A stretch of 39,629 bases of DNA. Origin: Bacillota bacterium (GTDB lineage: Bacteria > Bacillota > Clostridia > DSM-8532). How positions within the stretch are numbered: the stretch's first letter is position 1; the number at the start of each line of letters is the position of its first letter. Under the pieces are notes generated by a model. It worked only from the letters and a program-made list of their open reading frames with translations. It searched no databases and was not told where the DNA came from. The position numbers and the translations under genes were made by a program. The stretch lies in assembly GCA_022702935.2 (NCBI GenBank), contig JAKIML020000073.1, positions 1 through 39,629 on the forward strand, given 5' to 3'. Of the stretch, positions 2,006-21,264 are shown one piece after another.

Positions 2006-2095
2006 CTTCAAAACTCACAGCATATTTATCTGATATATTTTATAAGACTGTCCGCGGCTTTTAGAAGTGAAACTTCAGGAAACATCGGGCAAATA

Positions 2096-2124
2096 TTTAC
2101 AAACCATTCCATCTTGTTTAACAT
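2096..2124 (+). promoter_or_regulatory. Candidate promoter of the TldD/TldE pair
   Basis: TTTACA (2096-2101), a 17-base spacer and TAACAT (2119-2124) lie 30 bases before the chosen start at 2155. The boxes are near-consensus and the placement is sensible. Confidence 0.5.
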
Positions 2125-2154
2125 TAAGCATATAAGATGAAGACGGAGGTATCT

Positions 2155-3492: not shown

Positions 3493-3529
3493 ATTTAAAG
3501 CATAAGCCGGAACTGCTTTTCAGGAGGTA

Positions 3530-4768
3530 ATGAATTTGATTAAGGAATATTATCACGCCACGGTTATAGATACCACGCTGAATGTGGTCAATTCCCGCAT
3601 TGAGTCGGTGCGCAGCAAAAACATCACCAAAACCAGCCTCAGGGTCTACAAGGATCAGCGAATTGGTGTGGCCGGTGCCATTGGCTCCTATAAAGAGGAT
3701 GAGCTCCTTAAGGAAGCCATGGAGGCTTTAGACCGGGGTATCGACTATCCTGTTGCCCCCTCCTCCCAGTTAACCATGACCCAGGATTTAAGAAAGCCCC
3801 TGATTGCCCCCCAGGATTTGGTCACCGAGTTTGGTCAGCTTCTGGAGAGCTTACGGGAGCTTCAGCCCAATTATATCTTCTCCAATAAAATGTCCCTGTC
3901 CGAGCGCAGCAACATTCTGTACAATGATGCGGGCTTAAAGCTGGAGTATGCCGACCGAACTATCTCGGCCGGTCTTATCTTCAAAGAAAAGTCTTCCACC
4001 AGCGTATTTGACGGAGCCGTGGGCTTCAGGGAACGCAAATACGACAGAAAGCTTATTTTAGATGAGTTCAACCTTATCTTAAACGCCTATAGCGAAAAGG
4101 TATCCCTGCCTCCAAACGGCCGTTATCCCGTTGTTTTCCTCACCGAGGACGCCCCTGTAGGCAAATTCATCACTGGTCTTAAGGCCGATGTCCTGGCCAA
4201 GGGCGGCTCCCTGTTCTCGGAGAAGATAGGTCAGCGCCTGTTCAATGAGGCCTTTACCTTTGGTCAATGCCTGGATCCCCAGGAGGTTTACCTCTCCCCA
4301 TTCTTTGATGCGGAGGGCGTGGTCAACAACGGCTACACCTATAACCTCATTGAGGACGGGGTCATCAAAGCCCCCTATTGTGATAAGAAGACAGCCCATA
4401 AATTTGGTTTCGCTCCCTCGGGAAGTGCGGCGGCAGCCTATGATGGGGTTCCTCAAACAGCCCTGCTCCATCCCACCATTAAAAAATGTGGCAAGAGCTT
4501 CAAGGAACTGCTGGGCGGGCAGACGGGCATCTTTGTCATGATGGCTGCAGGTGGGGATTTCACCCCCCAGGGCGAGTATGCCACACCCGTTCAAGTGGCC
4601 CTGCTCACCGATGGCGAGCGCCTTCTGGGAAGGCTGCCCGAGTTCAATCTCTCCTCCCATGTGTATGATATGTTCGGTCAGGGATTCCGGGGCGTCACCG
4701 ACAGGACCTTCCTCCCCTTCAGCGGCGACAGCATGGCAGTATTGGAGATGAACATTGCAGCACCCTAA
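3530..4768 (+). CDS. TldD/PmbA-family protein, TldE-type partner
   Basis: A second TldD/PmbA-fold protein that lacks the HExxxH motif, as expected of the non-catalytic TldE/PmbA subunit that completes the active heterodimer. Its 412 residues show the family's C-terminal region (GKSFKELLGGQTGIFVMMAAGGDFTPQGEYATP is typical in layout). The ATG at 3530 lies only two bases after AGGAGG (3522-3527); an in-frame TTG at 3536 has the more usual 8-base spacing and may be the true start. It is followed by a strong terminator. Together with the upstream gene it forms a two-gene operon, and the two subunits are inferred to act together. Confidence 0.85.
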   Translation: MNLIKEYYHATVIDTTLNVVNSRIESVRSKNITKTSLRVYKDQRIGVAGAIGSYKEDELLKEAMEALDRGIDYPVAPSSQLTMTQDLRKPLIAPQDLVTEFGQLLESLRELQPNYIFSNKMSLSERSNILYNDAGLKLEYADRTISAGLIFKEKSSTSVFDGAVGFRERKYDRKLILDEFNLILNAYSEKVSLPPNGRYPVVFLTEDAPVGKFITGLKADVLAKGGSLFSEKIGQRLFNEAFTFGQCLDPQEVYLSPFFDAEGVVNNGYTYNLIEDGVIKAPYCDKKTAHKFGFAPSGSAAAAYDGVPQTALLHPTIKKCGKSFKELLGGQTGIFVMMAAGGDFTPQGEYATPVQVALLTDGERLLGRLPEFNLSSHVYDMFGQGFRGVTDRTFLPFSGDSMAVLEMNIAAP

Positions 4769-4783
4769 GTCTTTATAAAACCC

Positions 4784-4819
4784 ATGGCGTATCGGCTTGA
4801 AGCCATACGCCATTTTTTG
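4784..4819 (+). terminator. Rho-independent terminator after the TldE-type gene
   Basis: ATGGCGTAT (4784-4792) pairs with ATACGCCAT (4805-4813), with an inner GGCT/AGCC stem, followed by TTTTTG. It closes the TldD/TldE operon 15 bases after the stop codon. Confidence 0.88.
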
Positions 4820-4833
4820 TTCCGGAAAAAGCG

Positions 4834-4862
4834 TTACTTTTTCCGATAGAATAGAGTATAAG
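4834..4862 (+). promoter_or_regulatory. Candidate promoter of the sigma/anti-sigma operon, overlapping an inverted repeat
   Basis: TTACTT (4834-4839), a 17-base spacer and TATAAG (4857-4862) precede the ECF sigma gene. The -35 lies across an 8-bp inverted repeat, CGGAAAAA (4823-4830) and TTTTTCCG (4838-4845), which could be an operator or the remnant of a second terminator. Confidence 0.5.
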
Positions 4863-4893
4863 GGTTAAACGACATCTTGCAGGATGTGAAAGC

Positions 4894-5454
4894 ATGACTA
4901 ATGATAAACTTCTCAAGGAGGCTCAAAACGGCAGTATGGATGCCTTTGCAAGTCTGGTTGAAGCTTGCCAGCCAAGGCTATATGCCTTTGTGCTGAAAAT
5001 GGTCCGCTCCAGAGAGGAAGCAGAGGAAATTGTACAGGAAACCTTTATCCGGGCTTATAAAAACCTTTGGCGCTATGATAACCGGGCAAGCTTTATCACC
5101 TGGTTGTATGCCATTGCCCTCAACCTATGTAAAAGCGCCTTGAAGAAGCTGAAACGCATGCCCCTCAGCCTGGATGATGCAATGCCTGGTAATAAGGCCT
5201 CCCATGAAGCCCAGAGCATGGATCCCTCGGAGCATCTGGCTGACCTGGAATACAGAAAAGAAGCCCACAGACTGATGGCCTTTCTCAAGCCGGATCAAAG
5301 AGCCTGCCTGGTTTTAAAGTATATGGAGGGCTTAAGCTATGCACAGATTGGACGCATCCTGCGTATCAGCGAGGAAGCGGCCAAAATGAAAGTCTATCGC
5401 GCCAAAAAAGAGATTCTGAAGCGTTTCCCGGGAGGTATTAACCATGTCCTGTAA
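4894..5454 (+). CDS. ECF-type RNA polymerase sigma factor
   Basis: Alternative sigma factor of 186 residues with only regions 2 and 4. Region 2 (about 10-80) includes EEAEEIVQETFIRAYKNL and the RASFITWLYAIALNLCKSALK stretch; region 4 (about 125-180) includes the helix-turn-helix YAQIGRILRISEEAAKMKVYRAKK. There is no long N-terminal region 1, which places it in the ECF group. It overlaps the anti-sigma gene by 11 bases, so the two are translationally coupled. By analogy it is held inactive at the membrane and released by an envelope signal. The ribosome-binding site (AGGATG) is weak. Target promoters cannot be identified from the window alone. Confidence 0.93.
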   Translation: MTNDKLLKEAQNGSMDAFASLVEACQPRLYAFVLKMVRSREEAEEIVQETFIRAYKNLWRYDNRASFITWLYAIALNLCKSALKKLKRMPLSLDDAMPGNKASHEAQSMDPSEHLADLEYRKEAHRLMAFLKPDQRACLVLKYMEGLSYAQIGRILRISEEAAKMKVYRAKKEILKRFPGGINHVL

Positions 5455-6931
5455 AGCCTATGAACCTTTAATTATTCGCTATACTGAGGGTGAATTGTCA
5501 CTCAAAGAGCAAAAGGTCCTGGAAGACCACCTCAGGGTGTGTAAGCATTGCTTTGATAAAGTGCAAATTCTCATGGCACTGGCCAAGGAGGCCGAGGCTA
5601 TGCCTTCAGAGCAAATCGATGTGCTGCCGCGGGTCCGGGAGAGCCTTTCCGCATATGACAAAAGTCCCGGAAAGCCTATCAGCCGCGCTTTCTTGGGCAG
5701 GAGTTCCAGGTTGGTTAAACCGGCCTTTCTCTTCCTGTCCCTTGCTATACTGTGCCTGTTCTTATGGCCCCTTCTCTCCAAGGGTGCAGCCTCGCTCTTC
5801 CAGCAACGCTTTGGAGAGGGCTCACCCCATCAAACCGTGACGGGAAGCGAAATGCTGCCCACCCCCGAATCCAAGCCCGCTGTTACTCCACCTGCAACAG
5901 TTCAGCCCGGCTTCAGCCTGAGCTTTTATCGCTCCACCATGACCTATGAGGAAATACTAAGCCTCAGTCGGGAGATTGGAAGGCGAACCCCGCCTTATAG
6001 CAGCATCCCAATAGACAGAATTGCCCTGGAGGAAGAACCCTTCCTTACCGATTCATCCATAAATGCTTTTGTTACAAATACCCAACAAATCAAGGTGGAC
6101 GCAGAGACCCTGGATGTACTCTTTACCGAGCTTATGGACACCAGGCCCATCCCCTTTGTGGTCACCCTGTCCGGCGAACGGCTTTTTTGGGGTGTCTTCA
6201 TCCATCCCCTCTCCTCCATTGCCGCTCCCGATCTTCCCCTACTCACCATACGTTCTGAAGGGGATGTGCAAAGGCTGACCCTGAGCAAGCTGGATAAGGC
6301 TGGAGCAAGTGCTGAGAAGGCCTTCCTTAAGTTCTTCGAGGATAGGTACAAGCTGGCAATCCAGATTAATTCCGAGGTGCTTCCCTATATGGAGGCCCTC
6401 CAATTGGTTAATTTCAACACCCCCGACAATAAAATGGTTGAACTCCCCCTTCCGGAGGGGTGGTATGCCCAGGGGCAGGAGTATGAACTCTCGGGCGGCT
6501 TTACCTGGAACAGGGAGAAAAACAAGAACATAAAAAAGCTTCGCGCCTACACCCTGTATTTCGACGAGAAGCTTGAAGATACCTATTACTGGGGTATAAA
6601 GGGGCAGTTCTCAGGAGAGATTCATTTACAGGGCTTCTATAATGAATACCCCTATCCCGGACTTTCCTTCAACCACGCCAAACCGCTTGAGGCCCCCGTC
6701 AAGAAGCAGACCCTCCTGGGAGAGGCCTGGGTCTATTACCTGGAATGCGACAATTATCCTGCCGCCATGGCCGAGGAATACCCTGATACGCCGCCCACCT
6801 TTGACATGATCTTTGTGGTCATTCCCATTGAGGGGGAAAACCTGGCCTATGCCCTATCCCTGCCCGTGCCCGAGGGCATGGATATAAGAGACTTCTATCC
6901 CTATGCGGAGCAGATTCTTATGCTGAACTGA
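5444..6931 (+). CDS. Transmembrane anti-sigma factor with zinc-finger (ZAS) domain and large sensor domain
   Basis: Predicted membrane inhibitor of the ECF sigma factor encoded just upstream. The N-terminal cytoplasmic part has the zinc-associated anti-sigma motif HxxxCxxC (H29, C33, C36). One membrane segment spans about residues 91-112. The remaining 380 or so residues are outside the cell and match no domain I recognise; a proline/threonine-rich linker (about 130-150) separates them from the membrane. The 495-residue length is far more than the usual 150-250, so the outer part probably senses a ligand or wall state. The start overlaps the sigma gene (ATG at 5444, with GGGAGG upstream). Convergent with the GGDEF-EAL gene. 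Confidence 0.85.
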   Translation: MSCKAYEPLIIRYTEGELSLKEQKVLEDHLRVCKHCFDKVQILMALAKEAEAMPSEQIDVLPRVRESLSAYDKSPGKPISRAFLGRSSRLVKPAFLFLSLAILCLFLWPLLSKGAASLFQQRFGEGSPHQTVTGSEMLPTPESKPAVTPPATVQPGFSLSFYRSTMTYEEILSLSREIGRRTPPYSSIPIDRIALEEEPFLTDSSINAFVTNTQQIKVDAETLDVLFTELMDTRPIPFVVTLSGERLFWGVFIHPLSSIAAPDLPLLTIRSEGDVQRLTLSKLDKAGASAEKAFLKFFEDRYKLAIQINSEVLPYMEALQLVNFNTPDNKMVELPLPEGWYAQGQEYELSGGFTWNREKNKNIKKLRAYTLYFDEKLEDTYYWGIKGQFSGEIHLQGFYNEYPYPGLSFNHAKPLEAPVKKQTLLGEAWVYYLECDNYPAAMAEEYPDTPPTFDMIFVVIPIEGENLAYALSLPVPEGMDIRDFYPYAEQILMLN

Positions 6932-6933
6932 AA

Positions 6934-8298
6934 TCAGACGGCCTTCCCGGTTTCCAGCCCCATCCTGGCATGGAAGGCCATTGAGGCCGTGGCAATAAAC
7001 CGCTCGGCTTCCCTCTGGGGCAGGGGCTTGCTGAAGAAGTACCCCTGTACCTTGGCACATTGATATTGCATGAGATATTCCATTTGGCGCTTGGTCTCCA
7101 CACCCTCTGCCAAAACTGACAGGCCCATCTTTCGCCCGATTTGAATAATCAGGTCCACAATGGAACTCTCGGGCTCCGCTTCCAAAAGGCTGTCCACGAA
7201 GAGCTTGTCTATCTTCAAGGTATTGATGGGAAGCTGTTTTAAGCCGCTTAAAGAGGAATAGCCCCTGCCGAAATCATCCATGGCAATACGCACCCCATGG
7301 CAGCGCAGGACATCCAGCTTGGACCGGATACTCTCATAGGAATCAATCAATATGGTCTCGGTAATCTCCAGCTCCAGATGATGCGGATCCAGACCCGTCT
7401 CTTTAAGAATATCCAGCACGGTCTGAACGAAACCCTCCTGAAGAAGCTGAACAATGGACACATTCACTGAAATGTCCAGGTCGCTGTAGCCTTCCCTGTG
7501 AAGGCGGTGAATGAATTTGCAGGCTTTTCTTAACACCCACTCGCCAATGGGGATGATGAGCTGGGTTTCCTCGGCGATCCCAATGAAGCGGTTGGGCGAA
7601 ACGAAGCCCAGTTCGGGGCTGTTCCACCGTATCAGTGCCTCAAATCCGGATATCTTACCGGTCTCAATCATCAACTGGGGCTGATAGTACACCTCAAATT
7701 CTTCATTTTCCAAGGCCTGATGCAGATATCTTTCTACAAGACGTCTGTCCTTGACGGCCTCCTCCATTTTCCTGTCATAGAGCGCATAGCGGTTTCGCCC
7801 CGATGACTTGGCATCATGCAGGGCCATGTCCGCATGTTTGAGAACCTCTTCCAGGGTCTCACCATCCTCTGGGTAGAAGGCCACGCCCATGCTGAGGCTC
7901 ACATGAATCTTGCTGTTTCCAATAATGAAGGTTTTTTTGAAGCTTTCCTGAAGAGAGTCCAGATATTTGGCGATTTGCTGAGTATTGTTAAAGGTAAGCA
8001 CAGCGGCAAATTCATCACCGCCAAGACGGTAGGCCCTGCCCGGTGCAACCGACCCCCTGAATCGGTGTCCGGCGGCTCTTAAGAGTTGATCTCCAAAGAC
8101 ATGCCCCATGCTGTCATTGATGAGTCTGAAATGGTCGATGTCCACCAGAATGACAGCCGTATGGTGGCCCCTGTTCTTTCGCTTAAGATCCTTCATGAGC
8201 TGAACTCTGTCCAGCAAACCGGTTAATTTATCGTGACGGCAGAAATAGTCCCCCGTCTTTTCTCCCACCTGACGGAGACGATTAATGAAACTCGACAT
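6934..8298 (-). CDS. GGDEF-EAL protein for cyclic di-GMP turnover
   Basis: Cytosolic two-domain protein of 454 residues. The GGDEF domain (about 20-175) has an intact GGDEF at 93-97, so diguanylate cyclase activity is possible. It has no RxxD inhibitory site at the expected place five residues before it. The EAL domain (about 185-440) keeps EAL at 220-222, the SVNVS asparagine, EITE, DDFGRGYSSL, KIDK, EGVE and QGY, the residues needed for phosphodiesterase activity. No membrane segment or sensor domain is visible in the first 20 residues. The start at 8298 has AAGGGTG a few bases upstream; the frame is open for 19 more codons without a better site. Which activity dominates is unknown. Confidence 0.92.
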   Translation of the reverse strand: MSSFINRLRQVGEKTGDYFCRHDKLTGLLDRVQLMKDLKRKNRGHHTAVILVDIDHFRLINDSMGHVFGDQLLRAAGHRFRGSVAPGRAYRLGGDEFAAVLTFNNTQQIAKYLDSLQESFKKTFIIGNSKIHVSLSMGVAFYPEDGETLEEVLKHADMALHDAKSSGRNRYALYDRKMEEAVKDRRLVERYLHQALENEEFEVYYQPQLMIETGKISGFEALIRWNSPELGFVSPNRFIGIAEETQLIIPIGEWVLRKACKFIHRLHREGYSDLDISVNVSIVQLLQEGFVQTVLDILKETGLDPHHLELEITETILIDSYESIRSKLDVLRCHGVRIAMDDFGRGYSSLSGLKQLPINTLKIDKLFVDSLLEAEPESSIVDLIIQIGRKMGLSVLAEGVETKRQMEYLMQYQCAKVQGYFFSKPLPQREAERFIATASMAFHARMGLETGKAV

Positions 8299-9518: not shown

Positions 9519-11711
9519 TTATGTATTCAGGAGAATATGGAAAGTCGTCTCACCTTTTCGGGATTCGACAGAGATCTCTCCCCCTATTTCATTAACAACC
9601 CGCTTAACAATATCTAAGCCTAAGCCAGTACCCTCCCCCAGCTTCTTGGTGGTGAAGAACGGCTCAAAGATCCTGTCCATAATGGACTCGGGAATACCCG
9701 GCCCATTATCGGTGATGGAGACCCGTACTTTGTCCTCCATCTTAGCCACTGCAATGATAAGCTTGCCCTTGTTGTTCATGGCCTGCAGCGCATTGTTGAT
9801 AATATTCACCCACACCTGATGCAGCTTATCCGGGTAGCATAGCACTGGCGGAACCTCTTCATAACGCCTTTCAATTTCAACACCGTATTTAGTTTGATTA
9901 TAGTAAAGCGTCAAAACAAGCTCAATATCCTTAATCACATCATGGGGAACCAACTGGCCATGGGTTTCATTGTGGCCGTAGATCTTCAAGGCCATGATCA
10001 CCTTGGAGGCCTTTTCGGCTGATATTCTCACCATCTGAGTAGTTCTTTGGAGCACAGACATAACATAGGCCGCCCGGATGGCCTGAGGTGCCTGAGGAAT
10101 GTTGAACAGCGCCAAGAAATCTTGTGTTTCAGCATCGTATCCCATCTCCACAAGATGCTCCACCACCTCGGCGGGAACCTCTGCCTGATGCTCCTTGAGC
10201 GCGGTATAATATCGCCTTTTAATCTCCCGTTTGGTCTGGGAGCTCATATCATCGGTATGGGCCCTTCCCCGTTCAGTCAGTCGCTCATAGAGCTTGACGG
10301 CCATATCCGGGGCCGTGGTGCAGAAATCTATCACCCACTTAATTTCTTCCCTGATGGTCTTTTCCAATATGCCTCCCGCCGAGTTGATGACCCCCAGCGG
10401 TGTATTCAGCTCATGAGCAATGCCTGAAACCAATTGGCCCAGAACGGCCATTTTCTCATGGATAACCAACTGGGATTGAGCGGTTTTCAACGCATCAATG
10501 GTGGCTTCCAGCTCGCAATTGGCCTCCTCAAGCTCATTGGTTCTCGCCAGGACCTTGGCCTCCAGTTCGTCATTGAGTTTGATTATCTCTTGCTCGGCTG
10601 CCTTTTTCGCGGTGATGTCCTGGACAACCATGATTTGTGTGGTAGGCTCCTCACCCTCGGACCAGAGCGGCGTAATGGTTACCTCGGCCCAGACCACTTT
10701 GCCTTCTTTACTGACAAAGCGCTTCTCAAAGGAGAGGCTTTGCTTATTCCCCGACAGAAGCTCCTGCATTTTTTCGCATTGAAGTTCCAGATCATCCTGG
10801 AAGGTAATATCTCTGCAGGTCTTTTGCCTAAGCTCTTCCTCTGTATAGCCTACAATATCGCAAAAGCACTGGTTGACTAGGAGGAAGCGGCCATCCTCAA
10901 AATTGATTTGGGCAACACCCACACCGGCCTGGAGAAAAATGGCTCGGAACAGGTTCTCACTGGCCTTTATTTTGGCATAGGCCGCATCGATCTCCTGGAA
11001 CATATGCTCCAGGTCTGCGGCCATATGGAGGATCTCGACAAAGGCCGCTTTGAAGTTGGCCTCTGACATTTGCTTACGGGCCAAAGCGGGAGAGGACTTA
11101 CCCCCCTCTATCATGCTTTTGCGAATGGATTCCAGGGGCTGTACCAATTTAAGATATGTAGAATAGTTGACAGCCAGCGCCACAATCAGCAGGATAACAC
11201 CTGTGTTGAGAATGTTTACCCCGATTTCCTTGACCAGCAGATTCCGGCTCTCCCGGTGATCATACCAGACCGTAGCATAGGCGATAATCTGTTCTCTTTC
11301 ATCAAAGCGGGTAATGGGTATAACCCGTTTATCGATGTAGGGCCCAGTTGGTTCAAAATAAGCCTCCTGTATCTGGCCATCCCTTGACGACAGCCAGATC
11401 AAGGTTCTTTCCCCCGTACTGATCTTTATGGATGACAGATTCTTATTGTTCAGCTCCATGCTGAGAAGTTTTTTCAGGGTATCAATATCATAATTCCAGA
11501 TGGCCGGCTCAAAGGAAGATTGAATGCGCAGCTCCAGGGACTGCTTATAATCCTCAAGCTCCTCTTTGACTTGGTTCAAATCCGACAAAACCCCGATGAA
11601 AATGATGGGGATGTAAACCAGAAGCACCGTCAATGCCACAAGGCCTGATAGCTTCCAGGCAAGACTTGTCTTACTCGAGATATATGCTTTGATTTTACCT
11701 AACCAAGCCAT
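9519..11711 (-). CDS. Membrane sensor histidine kinase with PAS domain and long insert in the dimerisation domain
   Basis: Sensor kinase of 730 residues. Membrane segments at about 19-42 and 165-187 enclose an outer domain of some 120 residues. Then come a HAMP-like region, a PAS/PAC domain (about 253-368), a coiled coil (370-415), the H box with H433 (IAHELNTP), and a catalytic domain with N box (about 632-643), DNGPGIP (668-674), FEPFFTTK and GEGTGLGL (692-699). Between H box and the second dimerisation helix lies an insert of about 100 residues (452-552), seen in a subfamily of kinases I know mainly from cyanobacteria and other environmental bacteria. Its ATG overlaps the stop codon of the binding-protein gene (TAATG), so the two are coupled and probably form one sensor. 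Confidence 0.93.
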   Translation of the reverse strand: MAWLGKIKAYISSKTSLAWKLSGLVALTVLLVYIPIIFIGVLSDLNQVKEELEDYKQSLELRIQSSFEPAIWNYDIDTLKKLLSMELNNKNLSSIKISTGERTLIWLSSRDGQIQEAYFEPTGPYIDKRVIPITRFDEREQIIAYATVWYDHRESRNLLVKEIGVNILNTGVILLIVALAVNYSTYLKLVQPLESIRKSMIEGGKSSPALARKQMSEANFKAAFVEILHMAADLEHMFQEIDAAYAKIKASENLFRAIFLQAGVGVAQINFEDGRFLLVNQCFCDIVGYTEEELRQKTCRDITFQDDLELQCEKMQELLSGNKQSLSFEKRFVSKEGKVVWAEVTITPLWSEGEEPTTQIMVVQDITAKKAAEQEIIKLNDELEAKVLARTNELEEANCELEATIDALKTAQSQLVIHEKMAVLGQLVSGIAHELNTPLGVINSAGGILEKTIREEIKWVIDFCTTAPDMAVKLYERLTERGRAHTDDMSSQTKREIKRRYYTALKEHQAEVPAEVVEHLVEMGYDAETQDFLALFNIPQAPQAIRAAYVMSVLQRTTQMVRISAEKASKVIMALKIYGHNETHGQLVPHDVIKDIELVLTLYYNQTKYGVEIERRYEEVPPVLCYPDKLHQVWVNIINNALQAMNNKGKLIIAVAKMEDKVRVSITDNGPGIPESIMDRIFEPFFTTKKLGEGTGLGLDIVKRVVNEIGGEISVESRKGETTFHILLNT

Positions 11712-12589
11712 TAAAAATCACACATCCTCCGGGCTTCTTTTTCGCTGAGATATTTCAGAAAAATGTTGTGGAGGGTTCCATCCTTCCGCATCTCATCAAT
11801 GGTTTTCCTGATTTGCTCCACTTCTTCCTGCTTAAAGTGCAGTCTGCTTAATGAAAGGCCTCTTTCCAGGGGGCCTTCCTCGGGGGCCCAGTCATACACA
11901 TTGATGTTCTCGATATTCATGGTCTTGAAGTAATAGCGGTAGCTGGAAGCGATATTGAAGGTCACCTGAATCCAATTGTCCTTAAGGAGTTGGTAGAGGG
12001 CTTCAGTGTCCTTGGCCTCAACCACCATATTCTTAACCTTCAGCTTTTCAATGAGGGCCATATAATGTTCGCCGTAGTAATAGCCCCGGATAATCCCCAC
12101 CCGGATATCCTTCCGGTGAAGAAGATCCTCCTCATGGGTGATCCCGGTCTCACTGCGAACCAGCACATCATTCTTCTGGGTAAAATAGGGAATATAATAG
12201 GCATACTGGGCCCGCTCGGGTGTCTCTACAGCGGAAACGCTGATACAAAGGGTCCCTTCTCGGAGCATATTATCGATTCTTGCCCGGGGCATGACCACAA
12301 TCTCCAGCTCCATGCCCGTTCTTCTGGCCAGTTCCTCCAAAACATCCTTATTAATGCCTTCATCCACACCCTCATGATACAAATACCCGCTGTTATAAAG
12401 GGCGGCCAGCTTTTTGCCTTCCTTCCAGGGTGCGGGCATGGTGGGAGTGGCGCTATCGATTGGCTCAGGAAGATCAACGACAGTGTTGGGTCTGACTTTG
12501 AACTGCTGGTCTATGTAGTGGATAAAAGAGAAAATCATCCCCAAAAGGAGGATGGCACCCAGAAAAAAGCGCACAATAGGTCTACTCAT
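11711..12589 (-). CDS. Membrane-anchored solute-binding protein, family 3 type, sensory partner
   Basis: Periplasmic-binding-protein fold of the amino-acid (SBP_bac_3) type. A single hydrophobic N-terminal segment (about 7-25) has no lipobox cysteine, so the protein is either anchored by it or cleaved. Features of the fold include INKDVLEELARRTGMELEIVVMPRAR and VSAVETPERAQYAYYIPYF, and a closing helix IDEMRKDGTLHNIFLKYL. No ABC permease or ATPase lies nearby. It sits directly before, and overlapping, a histidine kinase gene, so it is inferred to bind a ligand (an amino acid or similar small molecule) and pass the signal to that kinase rather than to feed a transporter. GGAAGGAG lies 9 bases before the ATG. 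Confidence 0.82.
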   Translation of the reverse strand: MSRPIVRFFLGAILLLGMIFSFIHYIDQQFKVRPNTVVDLPEPIDSATPTMPAPWKEGKKLAALYNSGYLYHEGVDEGINKDVLEELARRTGMELEIVVMPRARIDNMLREGTLCISVSAVETPERAQYAYYIPYFTQKNDVLVRSETGITHEEDLLHRKDIRVGIIRGYYYGEHYMALIEKLKVKNMVVEAKDTEALYQLLKDNWIQVTFNIASSYRYYFKTMNIENINVYDWAPEEGPLERGLSLSRLHFKQEEVEQIRKTIDEMRKDGTLHNIFLKYLSEKEARRMCDF

Positions 12590-13953: not shown

Positions 13954-15390
13954 TTAATAAGCTCTGCCCCAATAAAGCATATGCTTGGCTTCCTTGCCGC
14001 AGCAGACACAGTGGTCACTGATCTTCTCCTGTTCAAAAGGAATGCATCTTGCCGTTGCAGCCATTCTCTCCTTTACTGCCTTTTCACAGGCCTCATCCCC
14101 GCACCACATGGCCTTGATAAAACCCTGTGTGGTATTGAGGATGTTTTCCATCTCATCTAAGGTCGTGGCCTTGAAGGTTCTGGATTCACGATGGGCCAGA
14201 GCCTTGTTGTAAAGGGATGCCTGGATTTCGTCCAGAACCTGGGGTATGCGTGCTTCCAGCTCATCCATGGAGACAAAGATCTTCTCACGATTCTCACGCT
14301 TAACCAATACCACCTGATTCTTCTGAATGTCCTTGGGACCCACTTCAAGACGCAGGGGTACACCGCGCATCTCATATTCGGAGAACTTCCAGCCGGGCAT
14401 CTTATCCGAGTCGTCCAGCTTCACGCGGCAGAAGCGGGAAAGTCTTTCCTTAAGCTCGTAGGCCTTGTCCAGGACGCCCTCCACATGCTGGGAAACAGGA
14501 ACAATAACCACCTGGATGGGCGCCACTCTGGGAGGCAGCACCAAGCCTGAATCATCTCCATGCACCATAATAATGGCGCCAATGAGGCGGGTGCTCACGC
14601 CCCAGGAGGTCTGATGGGCATATTGAAGCTTATTCTCTTTGTCCAGATACTGAATGCCGAAGGCACGGGCAAAGCCGTCCCCAAAGTTATGGGAGGTTCC
14701 GGACTGAAGCGCCTTTCCGTCATGCATCAGGCTTTCAATGGTATAGGTGGCCTTGGCCCCTGCAAACTTCTCTTTTTCGGTCTTCTGGCCCTTTATGACG
14801 GGAATGGCTAGATAATCCTCACAGAAGGAAGCGTAGGTGTTGAGCATACGCAGGGTTTCCTCCTGGGCCTCCTCGGCCGTCGCATGCACCGTATGACCCT
14901 CCTGCCATAAGAATTCTACCGAGCGCAGGAAGGGGCGGGTGGTCTTTTCCCAACGCACCACCGAGCACCATTGATTATACAGCTTGGGCAGATCCCTGTA
15001 GGACTGAACAATATTTGCGTAATGGTCGCAGAAGAGGGTCTCCGAGGTAGGGCGCACGCAGAGCCTTTCAGCCAGTCTCTCACTGCCGCCGTGGGTCACC
15101 CAGGCCACCTCAGGGGCAAAGCCCTCCACATGTTCCTTTTCCTTCTGCAGCAGGCTCTCGGGGATGAACATGGGCATATACACATTTTCATGCCCGGTTT
15201 CCTTAAAGCGTCTGTCCAATTCCTTCTGAATGAGCTCCCAGATGGCATATCCGTAAGGACGTACAATCATGCAGCCCTTGACGCTTGAATACTCTACAAG
15301 GTCCGCCTTCTTGACAATATCGGTATACCATTGGGCAAAATCCTCATTCATTGGGGTAATTGCTTCTACAAATTTCTTTTCCTGTGCCAT
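13954..15390 (-). CDS. proS: Prolyl-tRNA synthetase, archaeal/eukaryotic-like type
   Basis: Charges tRNA-Pro with proline. This 478-residue form lacks the large insertion (editing) domain of the bacterial type and has the C-terminal zinc-like domain of the archaeal/eukaryotic type, with cysteines in CGDEAC and CVCCGK and the ending YWGRAY. Class II features are PTSET, the motif 2 region [22 protein letters not shown] and motif 3 ending [14 protein letters not shown]. It is 17 bases downstream of a second, bacterial-type proS, with GGAGG seven bases before its ATG, so both are on one mRNA. Having both types is known in some Firmicutes. Without its own editing domain it may rely on the neighbour's INS domain or a free-standing editor to clear mischarged tRNA; that is inference. 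Confidence 0.95.
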
Positions 15391-15406: not shown

Positions 15407-17101
15407 TTATTCAATGGCCTTTACTTCGGCCGTTATTTTATCAATTGCTTCCTGAACCGTGAGCTCAATGGCCTGGCGGTTCTCCCGGTATTTAAACTCT
15501 ACAAGTCCCTCGGAGGCCTTCTTGCCAATATTAATTCGGATAGGAATGCCGATAAGGTCGGCATCCTTGAACTTGACACCGGGTCTTTCATTCCGGTCAT
15601 CCAGGATAACCTCCACATGAGCCTTCTGAAGCACCTTATAAAGATCTTCGGCCGTTTTCATCACCGTTTCGTCCAGTACATTGACCGGAACGATAATCAC
15701 ATGGTAGGGGGCCACCGCCATGGGCCATATGATACCGTTCTCATCGTTATTCTGTTCGATGATGGCCGCCATGGAGCGGTTTAAGCCTATACCGTAGCAG
15801 CCCATGACCATGGGTCTTTCGGTTCCTGTTTCATCCAGATAGTTACAGCCCAGGGCCCGGGTGTATTTAGTACCGAGCTTAAAGATATGCCCTACCTCAA
15901 TCCCCCGGGTCAGGGAGATGGTCTTGCCGCAGCGGGGGCAGGGATCCTCCGGGGTAATGCTCCGAATATCATGAACCTCGGCCTGAAAATCCCGGCCGAA
16001 GGTCACATTCTTCAGGTGATAATCAGTTTCATTGGCGCCAACAATCAGGTTAACCGCTGCCGCCACCTCATGGTCGGCAATGATTCTTATGCCCAACGCC
16101 ACAGGTCCGGCAAAGCCCACCTGGGCACGGGTTACCTGTTGGACACTCTCAGCATCGGCCATTTCAAGCTCGTTACATTTAAGCGCATTCATGAGCTTGA
16201 TCTCATTAAGCTCCCGATCCCCTCGAACCATGGCCGCCACCAGACTGCCATCGGCCCTGTATATCAACGTTTTGGCAAATTGCTTGGGTGAACAGCTTAA
16301 AAAGGTCGTAAGCTCCTCTATGGTCCTGACCTGGGGTGTGTGGATTCTCTCCACGGGTAGAGCCTCCTGGGTATCGGCCTGTGGCACAGAACACTGAGCC
16401 TTCTCCTCATTGGCCGCATAGCCGCAGGCCTCGCAATAGGCCATGACGGCCTCTCCCACCTCCGAGGTGACCATGAACTCCTGGGAGCCCGAGCCGCCCA
16501 TGGCACCTGTGTCGGCCTCCACCACCTTGTATTTGAGCTTCAGTCGGTCAAAGATGCGATGATAAGCCTCGGCCATCCTCTGATAAGAGGCATCCAGCCC
16601 TGCCTCATCCCTGTCAAAGCTATAGGCATCCTTCATGATGAACTCTCTGGAGCGCATGACGCCAAACCGAGGCCGGCGTTCGTCTCTGTATTTGGTCTGA
16701 ATTTGATAGAGAATCATGGGCAGAGCGCGATAGGAGCGTATGCTTTTCATGGTCTCGGTAAAGATCTCCTCATGGGTCGGACCAAGGCAAAACTCCCTGT
16801 TGTTGCGGTCCTTCAGCCGAAACATTTCGGGGCCGAAAACCTCCCAACGGCCCGATTCCTTATAGCTTTCGGCGGGAAGCAGGGCCGACATGAGAAGCTC
16901 CTGGGCACCCGCCCTGTCCATTTCCTCGCGGATGATCTTCTCTATCTTTTTGAGGGTGCGAAGGCCCAAAGGAAGAAAGGAGTAGACTCCTGAAGCCTGT
17001 TTTCGCATGAGCCCTGCTCTGAGCATGAGCTGATGACTGATAATCTCAGCCTCAGCGGGAACCTCCCTCAATGTGGGTATGAACATCTGTGAAAATCGCA
17101 T
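15407..17101 (-). CDS. proS: Prolyl-tRNA synthetase, bacterial type with editing domain
   Basis: Charges tRNA-Pro and can clear mischarged Ala-tRNA-Pro. The 564 residues follow the usual bacterial order: motif 1 near the N-terminus ([20 protein letters not shown]), motif 2 ([25 protein letters not shown]), the INS editing domain (about 225-380, with [12 protein letters not shown]), motif 3 ([13 protein letters not shown]) and a C-terminal anticodon-binding domain ([10 protein letters not shown]). GAGGTG lies 5 bases before the ATG. It is directly behind a T-box leader, so its expression should rise when uncharged tRNA-Pro builds up. First gene of the two-gene proS operon. Confidence 0.97.
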
Positions 17102-17231
17102 ACATACACCTCTCTGTCAGTCAATATTCCGCTCCGGTGGGAGCCATGGATATCGGGAAGGATCTGGAAGAAGAACCCACCCCAGAGAATCGCAGATTCT
17201 TGGTGAAATCCCTGGAGCCTTTTTTCTTCAT

Positions 17232-17474
17232 AAAAAAACCGTCCCAAAAAATGGGACGGAGTTCTTCCGCGGTACCACCCTTATTGGTCTGACGGCACAC
17301 TCCGTCAAACCCGGCTCTTTAGTCTATATCGCGACAAACGTAAACCTCATCGGTTTAAGTCTCGGGGTTGGGACGATGCATAAGTTGGGAATGAAAGTCT
17401 TCCACCCAAGGACTTTCTCTCTGTGGTCCGCTTATGGCATCATATTCCCGTCATCGACAGGTATTGAATTGTTA
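17232..17474 (-). promoter_or_regulatory. T-box leader controlling the proS pair
   Basis: Untranslated leader that senses uncharged tRNA. The canonical T-box AAGGGTGGTACCGCGG is on the minus strand at 17282-17267. A terminator with an 8-bp stem CCGTCCCA/TGGGACGG (17259-17252 with 17246-17239) and a T run follows. The bases ACTCCGTC just after the T-box can pair with GACGGAGT upstream, giving the competing fold. A long stem I lies at about 17371-17455; a CCC proline codon at 17389-17387 on its 3' side is a candidate specifier. The specifier assignment is my inference, supported by the gene downstream. Confidence 0.92.
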
Positions 17475-17480
17475 CCTCAC

Positions 17481-17510
17481 ATTATATTACACCCGTTTTT
17501 TAAATGTCAA
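17481..17510 (-). promoter_or_regulatory. Promoter of the T-box/proS operon
   Basis: On the minus strand TTGACA (17510-17505), an 18-base spacer and TATAAT (17486-17481) are both exact consensus boxes. Transcription would begin near 17474, just before the T-box stem I. Confidence 0.82.
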
Positions 17511-17555
17511 CGTTCCCGGAAAATCATGCATTCATTACATTAATATCCGCAGTTA

Positions 17556-17585
17556 TTACATTTATTTGCATAGTTTGCATAATAT
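17556..17585 (+). promoter_or_regulatory. Candidate promoter of the exported-peptide cassette
   Basis: TTACAT (17556-17561), an 18-base spacer and TAATAT (17580-17585) sit about 50 bases before the peptide gene, divergent from the proS promoter. An overlapping alternative is TTGCAT with TATTCT a few bases further on. The stretch is strikingly AT-rich. Confidence 0.5.
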
Positions 17586-17635
17586 ATGTTATTCTTTATT
17601 CGGGCCCAATAATATTTTAAAAGGAGGTTTTTTAC

Positions 17636-18010
17636 ATGAGCAAAGCTTCAGCTATTAGGAAAGGAAAAATGTCACGCATTTCTAAGCTACTCATTGTAAC
17701 ATTAATATGCGCTCTTCTTATAGGTGTCACAATATTTACAGCTTTTGCGGATACTTACACAGGATATATTAACGGACTTCCTTATAAATATTGGTTTTTA
17801 AGGGAAAGAACTTCTCAAGACTATCCCTGCATATCTACCACATTCGATTATCCAACTTATCATTATAGTAGTGCAGCAACCTATGTCGGTAGTCAAAGAA
17901 AACATTACAGCGGCAGGGATATTAAGTACGATTCAACAACTTCAAGAGCATATTCTACATATGAGGACTACTTTGCTTATACTTCTGCATATTACGGAAC
18001 TGAACCGTAA
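17636..18010 (+). CDS. Small exported tyrosine-rich peptide, lactococcin-972-like candidate
   Basis: Precursor of 124 residues with a basic N-terminus, a hydrophobic segment (about 17-36) and a signal-peptidase-like site AFA-D at 38/39. The mature part of about 86 residues has 17 tyrosines and one cysteine, and no recognised enzyme motif. The C-terminal half (SSAATYVGSQRKHYSG and AYTSAYYG) resembles in pattern the lactococcin 972 bacteriocin family, which also has a signal peptide and travels with a multi-pass membrane protein and an ABC ATPase, as here. AAGGAGG lies 8 bases before the ATG. Base composition is richer in A+T than the flanking genes. Bacteriocin function is inferred; a secreted signal or wall protein is also possible. 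Confidence 0.6.
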   Translation: MSKASAIRKGKMSRISKLLIVTLICALLIGVTIFTAFADTYTGYINGLPYKYWFLRERTSQDYPCISTTFDYPTYHYSSAATYVGSQRKHYSGRDIKYDSTTSRAYSTYEDYFAYTSAYYGTEP

Positions 18011-18080
18011 TGTAACTTGGACAGGCATGGAGGCTTTCTCCCATGCCTGTCACACTATCGTTCTTAGGAGATTTATTTTG

Positions 18081-19058
18081 ATGAAAATAAGAAAAAAATC
18101 ATCCGATGCAATCATCGCCATTGTTTATTTTCTTACGTCATTAGCCATAAGTATGGCTTCATTCTCAGCCGGGGAGTTGGAGCTTATTCAAAGAATCAGT
18201 AATTCATACTTTTCTGACAGCGCCATGTCCATTGAAAGCAGCGAAATAGCGTCCATTGATTTTTCAAAAGACCTCTTAAGCGGCAACGCCTTGTTTTTTA
18301 AAGAGGCCTACGGCATCTATTCCGTTTATTTCACCGGACATTTCTATATGCCCATGACCTCAGGACGTTTTTTCATGCCCGATGACTTTGAAGACAGTCT
18401 ACCAAAAGCCGTTGTGGGCAAAGATATTCCAACCCATACGTCCTCCGACGGGAAATCCATCTTTACTTATGGAACCACGGACTATGAGGTTATCGGCATT
18501 GCAGGCATTAATAAAAGCAGCCGTCTGGATAACAGCGTTTACTTAAGCATGCCGCCGCAAGCCATCGGTACCAAAACCGGGGTTTTTATTCTGGACGGCC
18601 CAAAGGTCAGAAAAAATATCAATATGCTCAAAGAAAAATATTATCTGTCCTCAAACAAGCTTGAAAACCTGGGAATTCAAAGAATTTTTGAAAGCCACGG
18701 CACCAGTTTTCAAGGTCTATTTAAAGCCATAGGGCTGATCTTCCTAATCTCCATACTCGCCATTACAAGCTATTGGTTCCTTCAAAAGCGCAAGTTGGTG
18801 TTGATCCTTAAATTATGCGGCCTGACCCGGTTGAAAATTCTGGGCATCCTTTGCATGGAATATGCACACTATGCTTTATCAAGCTTTGCCGCAGGTACGG
18901 TATTTGCCTATCTTTTCATTAGCCCCCTCTTTTCATACCCCTTTGATATAACCAATCATCTCACTTATCTTTCGGCAGGCATGGTATTCTGCCTTGTACC
19001 GGCGCTTATTCTGAACCTCCGATGGGCCAATCAATCCATGGGGAGGTATCAGCGATGA
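18081..19058 (+). CDS. FtsX/MacB-type ABC permease, first of two
   Basis: Membrane protein of 325 residues with the four-helix layout of MacB/FtsX permeases: one helix at about 9-30, a large outer domain (about 31-210, with GRFFMPDDFEDSLPKAVVGKDI typical of the MacB outer domain), and three helices at about 213-235, 260-285 and 292-313. The start at 18081 has AGGAG ten bases upstream; a TTG one codon earlier is possible. The open frame extends further upstream across the peptide gene but no ribosome-binding site supports it. Its stop overlaps the next permease start (ATGA). Predicted to pair with that permease and the ATPase to export, or give immunity to, the peptide upstream. Confidence 0.78.
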   Translation: MKIRKKSSDAIIAIVYFLTSLAISMASFSAGELELIQRISNSYFSDSAMSIESSEIASIDFSKDLLSGNALFFKEAYGIYSVYFTGHFYMPMTSGRFFMPDDFEDSLPKAVVGKDIPTHTSSDGKSIFTYGTTDYEVIGIAGINKSSRLDNSVYLSMPPQAIGTKTGVFILDGPKVRKNINMLKEKYYLSSNKLENLGIQRIFESHGTSFQGLFKAIGLIFLISILAITSYWFLQKRKLVLILKLCGLTRLKILGILCMEYAHYALSSFAAGTVFAYLFISPLFSYPFDITNHLTYLSAGMVFCLVPALILNLRWANQSMGRYQR

Positions 19059-20299
19059 TTCTTCAAGAAGCTATCAAGAGCATTAAAGCTTCTAAGATCC
19101 TGACGGCAGTCATTATTCTTCTGCTCATTGCTGCTTCATTGGTATGTAATCTTGTCCTTGACAAGCTGTCCTCCGTACGTCAGAGTCACAATAAGCTCGA
19201 CCAGACCACTCAAAAAAGTTACTTTTGGATTACTGAGGATTTACATGACAATGAGCTTGAACATCGGTTCTGGAACAGTGAAAACAGTTATGATCGCATC
19301 AGAGGTTATTATCAGGAAATGGCCACATCCAATGAATACAAATATCTGGAATTTTGCAAGCAGGTCATTTGGATAAAGGACTCATACGGCAAGTTCATCG
19401 AAAAAGTCAACAGAAGCTTAAACCTTAGTTGCCTTAATGAATTTGGGATCAATGTCATCGAGGGGCGCCTTTTTACTGAGGAAGAAATGAACGTGGATTT
19501 CTCAACGCAAACCATTCCCATAATTTTGGGCTACAATCTGAGAAATCGGCACCAAATTGGCGATACTTTCGAAGGGAAATACATGCTGAGGGATTTTAAA
19601 TTCAAGGTCATCGGTGTTTTGGAACCCAACAGTTATATTATCTTAACCAATATTGGTGATGACGATGTCGGCGATTTCTATCATGAATACCTGGACAACG
19701 CCTATATAACCCCCATGGTCAACTGTATTGATACGCCAAAAAGCAAAGATGAAAAAACCTTTATCCGTGTCCTGTACATGTTTAAGCTCAACAGTATCAT
19801 TGCAGCACCAGCAGACTATAATTCCGGTGAAATAAGAGCTAAAATGGACGATCTTGCCAACAAGTATGATATGTATGATTTTGAAGTTATCTCCATATCC
19901 AAACAGGAATTAAAAATACTGAAGCTGGTATGCAAAGATAGTATAGACATTATGACTGTATTGGCTGCTATTTTGTTTGTGTTTTCCTTCATCTGCCTAT
20001 TTGCCATTATGTCTGTTAAAATGAATAAAAATGTGGAGTATTACGCCATTCATCTCATGGTGGGCGCCAGCAGGCAACGTATTATCTTATATATTCTCAC
20101 CGAGATTATCCTCGTTGTATCGATGGCTCACAGTTTATCGTATGTCATAATCAGAAAATTGATTGGTTCGCAGATCCGCTATACCTTAACATGGCTGATC
20201 GTAAGCCTGTTGGCCTTTATGGCCGCCGCCCTGCCTTCCATTTATCAGATGATGCATAAAGAACTTGATACGCTGTTGTTAGGAGATGCCTATGAGTAA
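19055..20299 (+). CDS. FtsX/MacB-type ABC permease, second of two
   Basis: Membrane protein of 414 residues, same layout as its neighbour: one helix at about 14-33, an outer domain with VIEGRLFTEEEMNVDF and DFKFKVIGVLEPN (MacB-like), and three C-terminal helices (starting near TVLAAILFVFSFICLF, RIILYILTEIILVV and LTWLIVSLLAFMAA). The sequence differs clearly from the first permease, so the pair should form a heterodimer. GGGGAGG lies 8 bases before the ATG at 19055; the gene overlaps both neighbours, four bases upstream and eight downstream, showing tight coupling. It could be the split equivalent of the single large membrane protein in lactococcin-972 loci. Confidence 0.78.
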   Translation: MILQEAIKSIKASKILTAVIILLLIAASLVCNLVLDKLSSVRQSHNKLDQTTQKSYFWITEDLHDNELEHRFWNSENSYDRIRGYYQEMATSNEYKYLEFCKQVIWIKDSYGKFIEKVNRSLNLSCLNEFGINVIEGRLFTEEEMNVDFSTQTIPIILGYNLRNRHQIGDTFEGKYMLRDFKFKVIGVLEPNSYIILTNIGDDDVGDFYHEYLDNAYITPMVNCIDTPKSKDEKTFIRVLYMFKLNSIIAAPADYNSGEIRAKMDDLANKYDMYDFEVISISKQELKILKLVCKDSIDIMTVLAAILFVFSFICLFAIMSVKMNKNVEYYAIHLMVGASRQRIILYILTEIILVVSMAHSLSYVIIRKLIGSQIRYTLTWLIVSLLAFMAAALPSIYQMMHKELDTLLLGDAYE

Positions 20300-20957
20300 A
20301 CTGAGACTGGAAAATGTTAATAAGTATTATCAAAGCGGTTCAGGAACTGTCCACGCTTTAAAAAATGTATCCCTGGAGATTGAGCAGGGAGAGCTGTTGG
20401 CCGTCATGGGCAGAAGCGGATCGGGGAAATCTACCCTGCTGAAGGTTTTAGGCGGTTTGACAGGGATTGATACAGGGTGCTATTACTATGACAATAAGCC
20501 TTTGACCAATAAGGAAAGGCATATGAGCAAGTTCAGAAACCAGCATATCGGGTTTATTGTGCAGAATTATGCCCTGCTTTATGACAGAACCGTTTTTGAA
20601 AATGTTGAGCTGCCCTTGAAATACGCGGGTGTAAGAAAAAAGCTTCGGGAGTCTAGGGTGCTGGAGATCCTGGAGCAGGTGGGCCTTGAGGATTATGAGC
20701 AACGCTTTCCCCATGAGCTTTCGGGCGGTGAATGCCAGAGGGTAGCCATTGCTCGGGCCATTATCAACAATCCGGAGGTCATCCTGGCTGACGAACCTAC
20801 AGGGGCATTGGACGAGGATACGGAAGGGATTATCCTGGATATTTTCAAAGAACTCAACAGGGATGGCAAAACCATTGTCATCGTCACCCACGACCCCGTG
20901 CTTGCTAAAAAGCTTCACCGTGTGGTTTATTTAAATAGAGGGATGATTCATGAGTAA
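20292..20957 (+). CDS. ABC transporter ATP-binding protein, LolD/MacB type
   Basis: ATPase of 221 residues with every motif: Walker A (GRSGSGKST, about 40-48), Q-loop Q91, signature LSGGE (143-147), Walker B ending in E168 (VILADEPTGALDE), and the switch histidine H200. The PTGALD form and short length fit the LolD/MacB/FtsE group, which powers mechanotransmission through FtsX-fold permeases rather than substrate passage through the membrane. AGGAG lies 6 bases before the ATG at 20292; an in-frame ATG at 20286 is closer than usual to it. It overlaps the second permease gene and is the last gene of the peptide cassette. Confidence 0.93.
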   Translation: MSKLRLENVNKYYQSGSGTVHALKNVSLEIEQGELLAVMGRSGSGKSTLLKVLGGLTGIDTGCYYYDNKPLTNKERHMSKFRNQHIGFIVQNYALLYDRTVFENVELPLKYAGVRKKLRESRVLEILEQVGLEDYEQRFPHELSGGECQRVAIARAIINNPEVILADEPTGALDEDTEGIILDIFKELNRDGKTIVIVTHDPVLAKKLHRVVYLNRGMIHE

Positions 20958-21012
20958 CGTTTCATGTCCCATCTCCATAGATTATAAGGTGACGAATTTC
21001 AGGTGAGTTGAC

Positions 21013-21237
21013 ATGAAAACCCTGCGCATGAATCAATCCGTTTACGAAGCCACACAGAGGTATCCCGAACTCATTGATATCATTGCCTCATGTGGGTTTC
21101 CCCAAGTCAGGAATCCTGTCTTAAGGAACACCATGGGAAGGCGGTTCACCATCAGCCAGGCCCTTCATCAATTAGGCCCAAATCAGAATAAAATTTTGGA
21201 AGCCCTAAAGCGTAACGGCTTTCAGCTTATTCCCTGA
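21013..21237 (+). CDS. Small DUF1858-domain protein
   Basis: Cytosolic protein of 74 residues. The pattern YPELIDIIASCGF, then RNTMGRRFTISQALHQLG, matches DUF1858, a short helical domain often found alone or at the N-terminus of hybrid-cluster and DUF438 proteins in anaerobes. The function is not known. AGGTGAG lies five bases before the ATG. It follows the ABC ATPase by 55 bases with no terminator seen, so it may be read from the same mRNA although its base composition resembles the flanks. A second DUF1858 gene lies at 36168-36371, of the cysteine-bearing kind, which this one is not. Confidence 0.75.
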   Translation: MKTLRMNQSVYEATQRYPELIDIIASCGFPQVRNPVLRNTMGRRFTISQALHQLGPNQNKILEALKRNGFQLIP

Positions 21238-21264
21238 AGGTCCATAGAGTCCGAGCTGTCCCCC

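Follow-up and report, generated by a model that had tools for sequence, protein, structure and literature searches.

The closest described counterparts of the locus reported here are the lactococcin 972 loci (lcn972-orf2-orf3, streptococcin scbABC and mediterrocin), in which an unmodified peptide of 60-90 residues is made as a signal-peptide precursor, and an FtsX-like membrane protein and an ATPase are encoded behind it. Lactococcin 972 folds as a beta-sandwich (PDB 2LGN; PMC11796350), one lactococcin-972 locus is carried on a plasmid of 11 kb (PMC4055356), and, according to PMC11796350, experiments have yet to verify in any of these loci what the membrane protein and ATPase do. Here we describe a cassette of similar logic at positions 17636-20957, on the forward strand, of a 39,629-nucleotide stretch of clostridial DNA (contig JAKIML020000073.1; hereafter the window), which comprises genes for a signal-peptide precursor, two permeases and an ATPase and forms part of an AT-rich insertion. 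With a rough probability of 0.57, we read it as a mobile bacteriocin-like cassette in which a Sec-exported, beta-rich peptide is accompanied by a heterodimeric type VII ATP-binding cassette (ABC) transporter that would serve self-protection.

The first gene of the cassette (17636-18010) starts behind a strong ribosome-binding site, AAGGAGG at 17621-17627, and encodes a precursor of 124 residues (a family member in alignment A13). The precursor has a basic start and a hydrophobic core (mean Kyte-Doolittle hydropathy 3.3 near residue 18), and cleavage, placed by eye, is predicted between AFA and DTYTG, which would give a signal peptide of 38 codons (17636-17749) and a mature peptide of 86 residues (17750-18007) with a single cysteine and the core HYSSA...SGR...AYYG. 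Seventeen of the 86 residues are tyrosine (19.8%), in agreement with an earlier note on this DNA, made from the sequence alone, which had described an exported precursor whose mature part is about one-fifth tyrosine. The gene for permease 1 (325 residues, 18081-19058) follows 70 nucleotides behind the peptide stop; we place its start at the ATG at 18081, rather than at the GTG at 17871 of the mechanical list of open reading frames (ORFs), because AGGAG precedes 18081 and the orthologue in genome G008 starts similarly close behind its peptide stop (60 nucleotides). Permease 2 (414 residues, 19055-20299) overlaps permease 1 by 4 nucleotides, and the ATPase (223 residues, 20286-20957) overlaps permease 2 by 14 nucleotides, so the four genes are close or overlapping, as the note had stated.

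Both permeases are of the MacB/FtsX type: a hydrophobic segment at the N-terminus is followed by a large outer domain and, at the C-terminus, by a group of hydrophobic stretches. Permease 1 passes the Pfam cut-off for FtsX (1.4e-8), and its family profile matches MacB (9e-14), YtrF (2e-7), PsdB (2.5e-4) and LolF among solved chains. Permease 2 on its own falls below the Pfam cut-offs and is placed by profile only, against permease 1 (8e-17) and against solved MacB (3e-6). The prediction of two different permeases was thus correct; the four helices then assigned to each are only partly borne out, as hydropathy gives four stretches in permease 2 (one N-terminal, three C-terminal) and five in permease 1 (one plus four), where a count of four would rest on homology to FtsX. 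The ATPase matches ABC_tran (3.4e-35), and Walker A (GRSGSGKST) and signature (LSGGE) motifs can be read in its sequence. Among NCBIfam models it scores highest with TIGR03608, the ABC model of lactococcin 972, at 225.6 bits against a cut-off of 254.85, and LolD scores 214.5 bits, also under its cut-off; the LolD/MacB type proposed earlier agrees with these scores. The combination of permeases with an N-terminal transmembrane segment, an outer domain and an FtsX C-terminal part, and a MacB/LolD-type ATPase with Walker A, signature and Walker B motifs, is that of a type VII ABC transporter. MacB, LolCDE, YtrEF and BceAB belong to the same permease and ATPase family, and LolCDE also has two different half-permeases; the cassette differs from these systems in having no MacA-like adaptor gene and in its link to an exported peptide. 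In a PADLOC scan the only match was the ATPase, which resembles defence ATPases.

Genome G008 keeps the order peptide, permease, permease, ATPase amid different neighbour genes, which argues that the arrangement exceeds chance. Identity between the window and G008 is 63% for the peptide precursor, 47% for permease 1, 50% for permease 2 and 69% for the ATPase. More widely, relatives of permease 2 at E<=1e-10 occur in 18 of 391 genomes of the class and 33 of 398 genomes of the phylum, the modules examined from the phylum being the 21 strongest of 38 places, of which the other 17 score E 7e-15 or weaker. We read 40 modules or part-modules, and in 28 the order is permease 1, permease 2, ATPase (two of them, L072 and L073, with a broken gene), and the peptide lies upstream in the loci of its family, so the gene order that the note had proposed to look for elsewhere does recur. 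The modules of L077 and L130 have a different gene order, and the others run off a contig end or lack parts; in a third species (G002) permease 2 and the ATPase lie at a contig edge.

Small exported ORFs upstream of such modules in unrelated genomes revealed the peptide family, six of them sharing a C-terminal core with the window peptide. This core reads, in variants, HYxRA followed by SGRxW or SGRxY and finally by A..YYG, and the family assembled here has 12 members, two of them provisional. No member passes a cut-off in Pfam (0/12) or, among the 11 scanned, in NCBIfam. We built models without one group of members at a time, from the parts behind residue 25, and scored them against 4,679 small ORFs of the loci studied. 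The model of ten members made without the window and G008 peptides scored these two at E 1.9e-4 and 2.7e-4, and the best unrelated ORF at 5.8. L120, L121, L126, P0002, P0003 and P0006 were recovered at E < 1e-13, L123 at 3e-4 and P0005 at 0.011; L124 and L073 share the motif but reached only 0.73 and 8, and are the provisional members. One background ORF, in L045, ranked high in all hold-out runs but one, and is a cut copy of member L073. The richness in tyrosine that the note had found unusual is real for the window and G008 species pair and peculiar to it, the ten other members having 4-10% tyrosine.

The family is associated with the transporter. Searched against 299 genomes of the phylum, its model gave two matches outside the sequences it was built from, in G496 (2.9e-5) and G583 (7.5e-4), and against 28 genomes with a permease-2 relative it gave one more, in G121 (2.9e-8). 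All three copies lie about 85-120 nucleotides upstream of permease 1, which in G583 is reduced to a fragment of 77 codons, and all are incomplete: those of G121 and G496 retain a C-terminal part with no in-frame signal peptide, and that of G583 is 20 codons long. All seven genomes with a match at E<=1e-3 among the 299, five of which were already in the model, have it beside a module or a permease 1 fragment. Matches in G567, G421 and G450 in the same search were weak and are not believed; nor are those at C38 of G121 and at a second place in G705, which mostly cover the signal-peptide part. The full-length window-type peptide itself is rare, being found in 2/32 genomes of the taxonomic family and 2/391 of the class, the same two species of one genus, and a scan of 84,980 species gave one contig with the peptide, JAAYAD010000012.1 (Clostridiaceae metagenome-assembled genome AS02xzSISU_79). 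We set aside 10 of the 12 genomes matched in the family-level peptide search as weak (E 0.08-0.83), and seven class-level matches as partial (E 3e-4 to 1e-3). In the literature found by text search, which cannot match by sequence, the peptide family is undescribed and no assay of a member appears.

To measure the association we applied an automatic rule, under which an exported small ORF lies directly upstream in 12/33 modules and 3/39 other FtsX operons (p 0.003), the controls being hand-picked from FtsX matches, mostly short frames, in 12 genomes chosen largely for peptide-bearing modules, and the cases coming from more genomes. Without the window and G008 the count is 10/31 modules (p 0.01). 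From 34 modules listed one was dropped at a contig edge, and from 40 controls one that shared its first gene; L020, L065, L068, L071, L079 and L133, in which permease 1 is missing, cut or broken, were left out. Two of the three control positives resemble N-terminal pieces of permeases, and at L066 the rule strayed as far as an unrelated gene, no convincing peptide preceding permease 1 there. A recount by eye (14/33 vs 1/39, p 3e-5) was discarded, as it was made after the result had been seen. The family described here is the commonest partner among the exported ORFs found (8/14, two provisional). In G328 (twice), G148, G297, G417 and G734 the same upstream slot holds exported ORFs that are not placed in the family (the upstream exported ORFs of L070, L075, L077, L078, L130 and L122 were left unplaced), and since such ORFs occupy the same slot, the transporter appears to go with exported peptides in general. 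In L070 (G328), the permeases are preceded by two different exported ORFs, of 198 and 105 residues, and a small ORF separates the two (3206-4358). In L121 (G458), two similar modules with the same gene lengths and near-equal profile scores lie 5 kb apart (4588-7535 and 9578-12525); an intact peptide is present only at the second, and an orphan signal-peptide ORF of 46 codons lies between them.

In G121, G496 and plasmid p1 of Sarcina, the last of which lies outside the association count, full-length transporter genes stand beside a broken peptide gene, and a transporter that stays intact when the peptide is lost is the pattern expected of immunity genes. Lactococcin 972 loci are alike in this respect: scbBC occurs alone, without scbA, in 157/571 and 150/617 pneumococci in the data of PMC11796350.

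The cassette has apparently been transferred. In three genomes of the same genus (G009, G011 and G012) the spacing between proS and a methyltransferase gene is 0.45-0.54 kb, compared with 4.2 kb in the window, and the peptide, both permeases, the ATPase and a DUF1858 gene are all absent from it; in G002 and G013, proS lies outside the stretch compared. The comparison places the inserted stretch, with approximate edges, at 17474-21240, the proS leader being common to the relatives as far as 17468-17473, beyond which a single weak piece reaches 17512. No repeat pair was found flanking the cassette. GC content is 0.36 in the peptide gene, 0.43 in permease 1, 0.40 in permease 2 and 0.47 in the ATPase, against 0.53 in proS and 0.51 in the methyltransferase gene, and the G008 cassette is likewise richer in A+T than its flanks (0.326 vs 0.405). 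The transfer that the note had suspected from base composition is thereby joined by an empty site and by relatives on plasmids.

Searching plasmids from the transporter, we identified six records with permease-2 relatives, and in five of them the family's peptide gene is intact: two plasmids of Paenibacillus polymyxa (pPPM1a, WP_014600129.1; NZ_CP133769.1), Sarcina sp. JB2 p6, Priestia megaterium plasmid 6 and Terrisporobacter pTVTCOM3. The sixth, Sarcina p1, has a truncated copy of 40 residues, and a search from the P. polymyxa peptide found four records, all among these six. Sarcina p6 (11.3 kb) holds the cassette and replication-type genes (toprim, Rep and a long helicase-like ORF identified by eye and absent from the gene table) and little else of at least 90 codons. 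In the Priestia record permease 1 would span the start of the record, and the 5.6-kb record of pTVTCOM3 (L145) contains the peptide and permease 2, with no permease 1 or ATPase found in it; a VanZ-family gene lies beside them. In the four records whose annotation was seen, the peptide genes are deposited as hypothetical proteins. Searches from individual peptides gave no match for the window peptide in phage, plasmid and viral collections, for P0002 in phages and viral contigs, for P0003 in viral contigs or, at E<=1, for the L121 peptide in plasmids, although the family occurs on plasmids; P0005 matched only itself among plasmids.

From these observations we propose that the general secretion pathway would export the precursor and that cleavage behind AFA would leave an unmodified, beta-rich peptide of 86 residues. 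By analogy with known loci, this peptide would diffuse and inhibit related bacteria from the outside, the cell surface being the most likely site of action. As a heterodimer, the two permeases would make up, together with an ATPase dimer, a transporter of the MacB/LolCDE/FtsX-like type VII class, whose most likely task is to protect the producer: it would draw the peptide, or a complex of the peptide with its surface target, off the outer face of the membrane. Closticin 574 offers a clostridial bacteriocin of like size (82 residues) that also uses a general signal peptide, though it is cut from a precursor of 309 residues (PMC10888436).

A hairpin after the peptide gene may allow an excess of peptide over transporter. 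The gap between the peptide gene and permease 1 folds at -25.8 kcal/mol (z -3.9), with the stem at 18020-18051, no T-run behind it and no terminator listed between the two genes. Hairpins with z<=-3 occur in 7/13 gaps between an exported ORF and a permease and in 3/7 lactococcin-972 loci folded likewise. The hairpin may act by attenuation or by protecting the peptide message. A weak candidate promoter (17555-17583, forward strand, ATTACA and CATAAT 17 nucleotides apart) agrees with the consensus at 9/12 positions; the scan gave 16 sites in the region and 9.4 in shuffles, and the candidate therefore carries no functional evidence.

Several observations weigh against the proposed bacteriocin and immunity roles. 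No activity is known for any member of the family, and no regulator, two-component system or dedicated immunity protein lies next to the cassette. The note had counted permeases and ATPase regularly found without a small exported peptide as refuting its proposal, and this outcome is seen in part: by the automatic rule, 21/33 modules have no exported ORF directly upstream, which would allow the transporter a wider job. Of these 21, two (G121 and G496) have incomplete peptide copies and another two have exported ORFs rejected by a filter, whereas such a peptide may never have been present in the rest. In G583 and G215 the transporter genes are broken too; L202 of G583 holds a degraded module on the reverse strand (4773-5177), a peptide-like piece followed by the permease 1 fragment, and in L073 of G215 (1939-3377), a provisional family peptide precedes a permease 2 that reads as two pieces, so that this module may be broken. 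The mature peptide, 70% identical between the window and G008, is conserved like the ATPase and above the permeases, unlike a fast-diversifying toxin, and both peptides are near zero in net charge, unlike many cationic bacteriocins. The G008 gap folds at a z of only -0.7, so the hairpin is not conserved, and the gaps folded were confined to the exported-ORF and lactococcin-972 loci. The fold is uncertain as well: AlphaFold2, given two sequences and run twice, predicted a five-strand meander in the first 57-58 residues with a mean predicted local distance difference test score (pLDDT) of 59.6 and 55.5, residues 61-86 having no resolved structure. With the first model Foldseek returned nothing at E<=0.001, and the rows shown by VIA-align were unrelated proteins at Z <= 5.7 with neither 2LGN nor 9HKJ among them. 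A match of the peptide to an unrelated structural family, the other outcome that the note had counted against its proposal, was not seen in the structure searches or with the family profile against the PDB.

The alternative that survives best, although rather unlikely, is that the peptide is a true but very divergent member of the lactococcin 972 family and the permeases are split halves of a DUF1430-type protein, a claim about ancestry that is compatible with the cassette being bacteriocin-like. The bacteriocin-locus logic that the note drew from lactococcin 972 does stand in the gene order, and TIGR03608 is the best model of the ATPase, though below its cut-off; the kinship of the peptides, which it also suggested, found no support. 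Neither the window peptide nor any of 11 relatives matched PF09683 at E<=1 (matches to six other families stayed below cut-off where shown), and the model found nothing at E<=0.01 in genomes G000 and G008, although 6/391 genomes of the class pass its cut-off. Profile comparisons of the peptide family with lactococcin 972 by hhalign do align the H...SGR stretch, at E values of 0.45, 0.15 and 0.34 that are not significant, the alignments being small and of low power. Lactococcin peptides rank above background ORFs (p 1.2e-5 and 7.5e-4), as do the new members under the lactococcin model (p 4.5e-8, members not shuffled); we rejected this as a sign of kinship, since composition shuffles of the lactococcin peptides score as well as the real ones. 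The lactococcin peptide profile finds PDB 9HKJ and 2LGN, and the new-family profile finds neither. No membership in lactococcin 972 is therefore detectable by sequence for the family, which has no Pfam or NCBIfam model and a different core motif. How far sequence can drift in that family is shown by mediterrocin, an active gut peptide and proven relative that is only 18% identical to lactococcin 972 (PMC12345188).

Six of eight PF09683 loci of the same class (L080-L087) have the peptide gene, then a membrane protein of 661-733 residues, then the ATPase. Of the other two, L085 has its membrane protein broken into two, and on the stretch of L087 no membrane protein or ATPase was seen. Where these loci have one long protein, the cassette has two half-permeases of 325 and 414 residues. 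In lactococcin-972 membrane proteins it is the FtsX part to which their profiles align (1.4e-8 and 1.4e-5), yet the two profiles cover one and the same stretch (positions 140-250), so that the splitting in two that the note envisaged is only one possible history. Pfam found no DUF1430 in either permease, and TIGR01654 reached only 0.085 for permease 1, compared with 3.5e-19 for the partner of a true lactococcin-972 member (68.7 bits, itself under the cut-off of 189). Behind the lactococcin-972 locus of L080 lies an ORF of 197 residues with an N-terminal hydrophobic segment (7475-8068; 0.015 with the lactococcin model), and L082 and L085 have ORFs like it in length and place.

LolCDE and MacB act on substrates in the outer leaflet or periplasm, which they release or expel, and the kinship of the permeases to MacB and Lol, together with the adjacency and apparently shared operon of the peptide gene, would suit a transporter that acts as exporter or releaser, the peptide crossing by Sec, staying at the outer face of the membrane and being driven off by the MacB-like pump. 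We regard this as unlikely, as the three intact transporters beside broken peptides are a better fit for protection and Sec-exported lactococcin-972-like peptides are thought, in PMC11796350 and PMC12345188, to require no special exporter.

Equally doubtful is that the peptide partners the transporter in a structural or sensory role, as an accessory subunit outside the cytoplasm or as an aid to substrate binding, in a complex that, like YtrBCDEF or BceAB, protects against cell-envelope antibiotics from outside. The matches of the permease 1 profile to YtrF and PsdB point this way, as does a mature peptide better conserved than its permeases; against it, many modules are retained with no such peptide, exported peptides without shown kinship fill the same slot in G328, G148 and G297, and Sarcina p6 holds little beyond replication-type genes and the cassette. 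That the peptide is a pheromone and the transporter its sensor or exporter is very improbable, for although the peptide is small, exported, conserved and next to a membrane complex, the cassette has no two-component system or regulator and a beta-rich product of 86 residues is long for a Gram-positive pheromone.

Some neighbouring genes merit mention. A DUF1858 gene (21013-21237, forward strand; Pfam 4e-13) lies between the cassette and the methyltransferase gene and is perhaps part of the insertion, since it is missing at the same site in G009, G011 and G012. On the other side, two adjacent prolyl-tRNA synthetase genes on the reverse strand (13954-15390 and 15407-17101), called divergent and named by eye, are about 31% alike over 160 residues, and the pair is retained in G009 and G011. 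Upstream of proS is a leader (17220-17468, reverse strand) with GGTACCGCGG and a terminator-like stem, conserved in three genomes of the same genus, which we take to be T-box-like from its motif; Rfam gave no T-box in this leader at gathering score.

If the bacteriocin-like reading is correct, the cassette would add an exported-peptide family outside all Pfam and NCBIfam models and, in the transporter, a signature by which related systems could be traced in genomes and plasmids. It would also make the role of the lactococcin-972-type membrane protein and ATPase testable, and the loci with a broken peptide and an intact transporter would be natural test cases for an immunity role. Tentatively, and with somewhat less than even confidence, we suggest that these cassettes represent a new class of Sec-exported, unmodified, beta-rich bacteriocins (HYxRA...SGR...YYG) on chromosomes and plasmids of Clostridia and Bacilli, with a heterodimeric MacB-type immunity transporter, and that, as the same transporter type lies behind other exported peptides, the permease pair may serve as a search handle for more bacteriocins.

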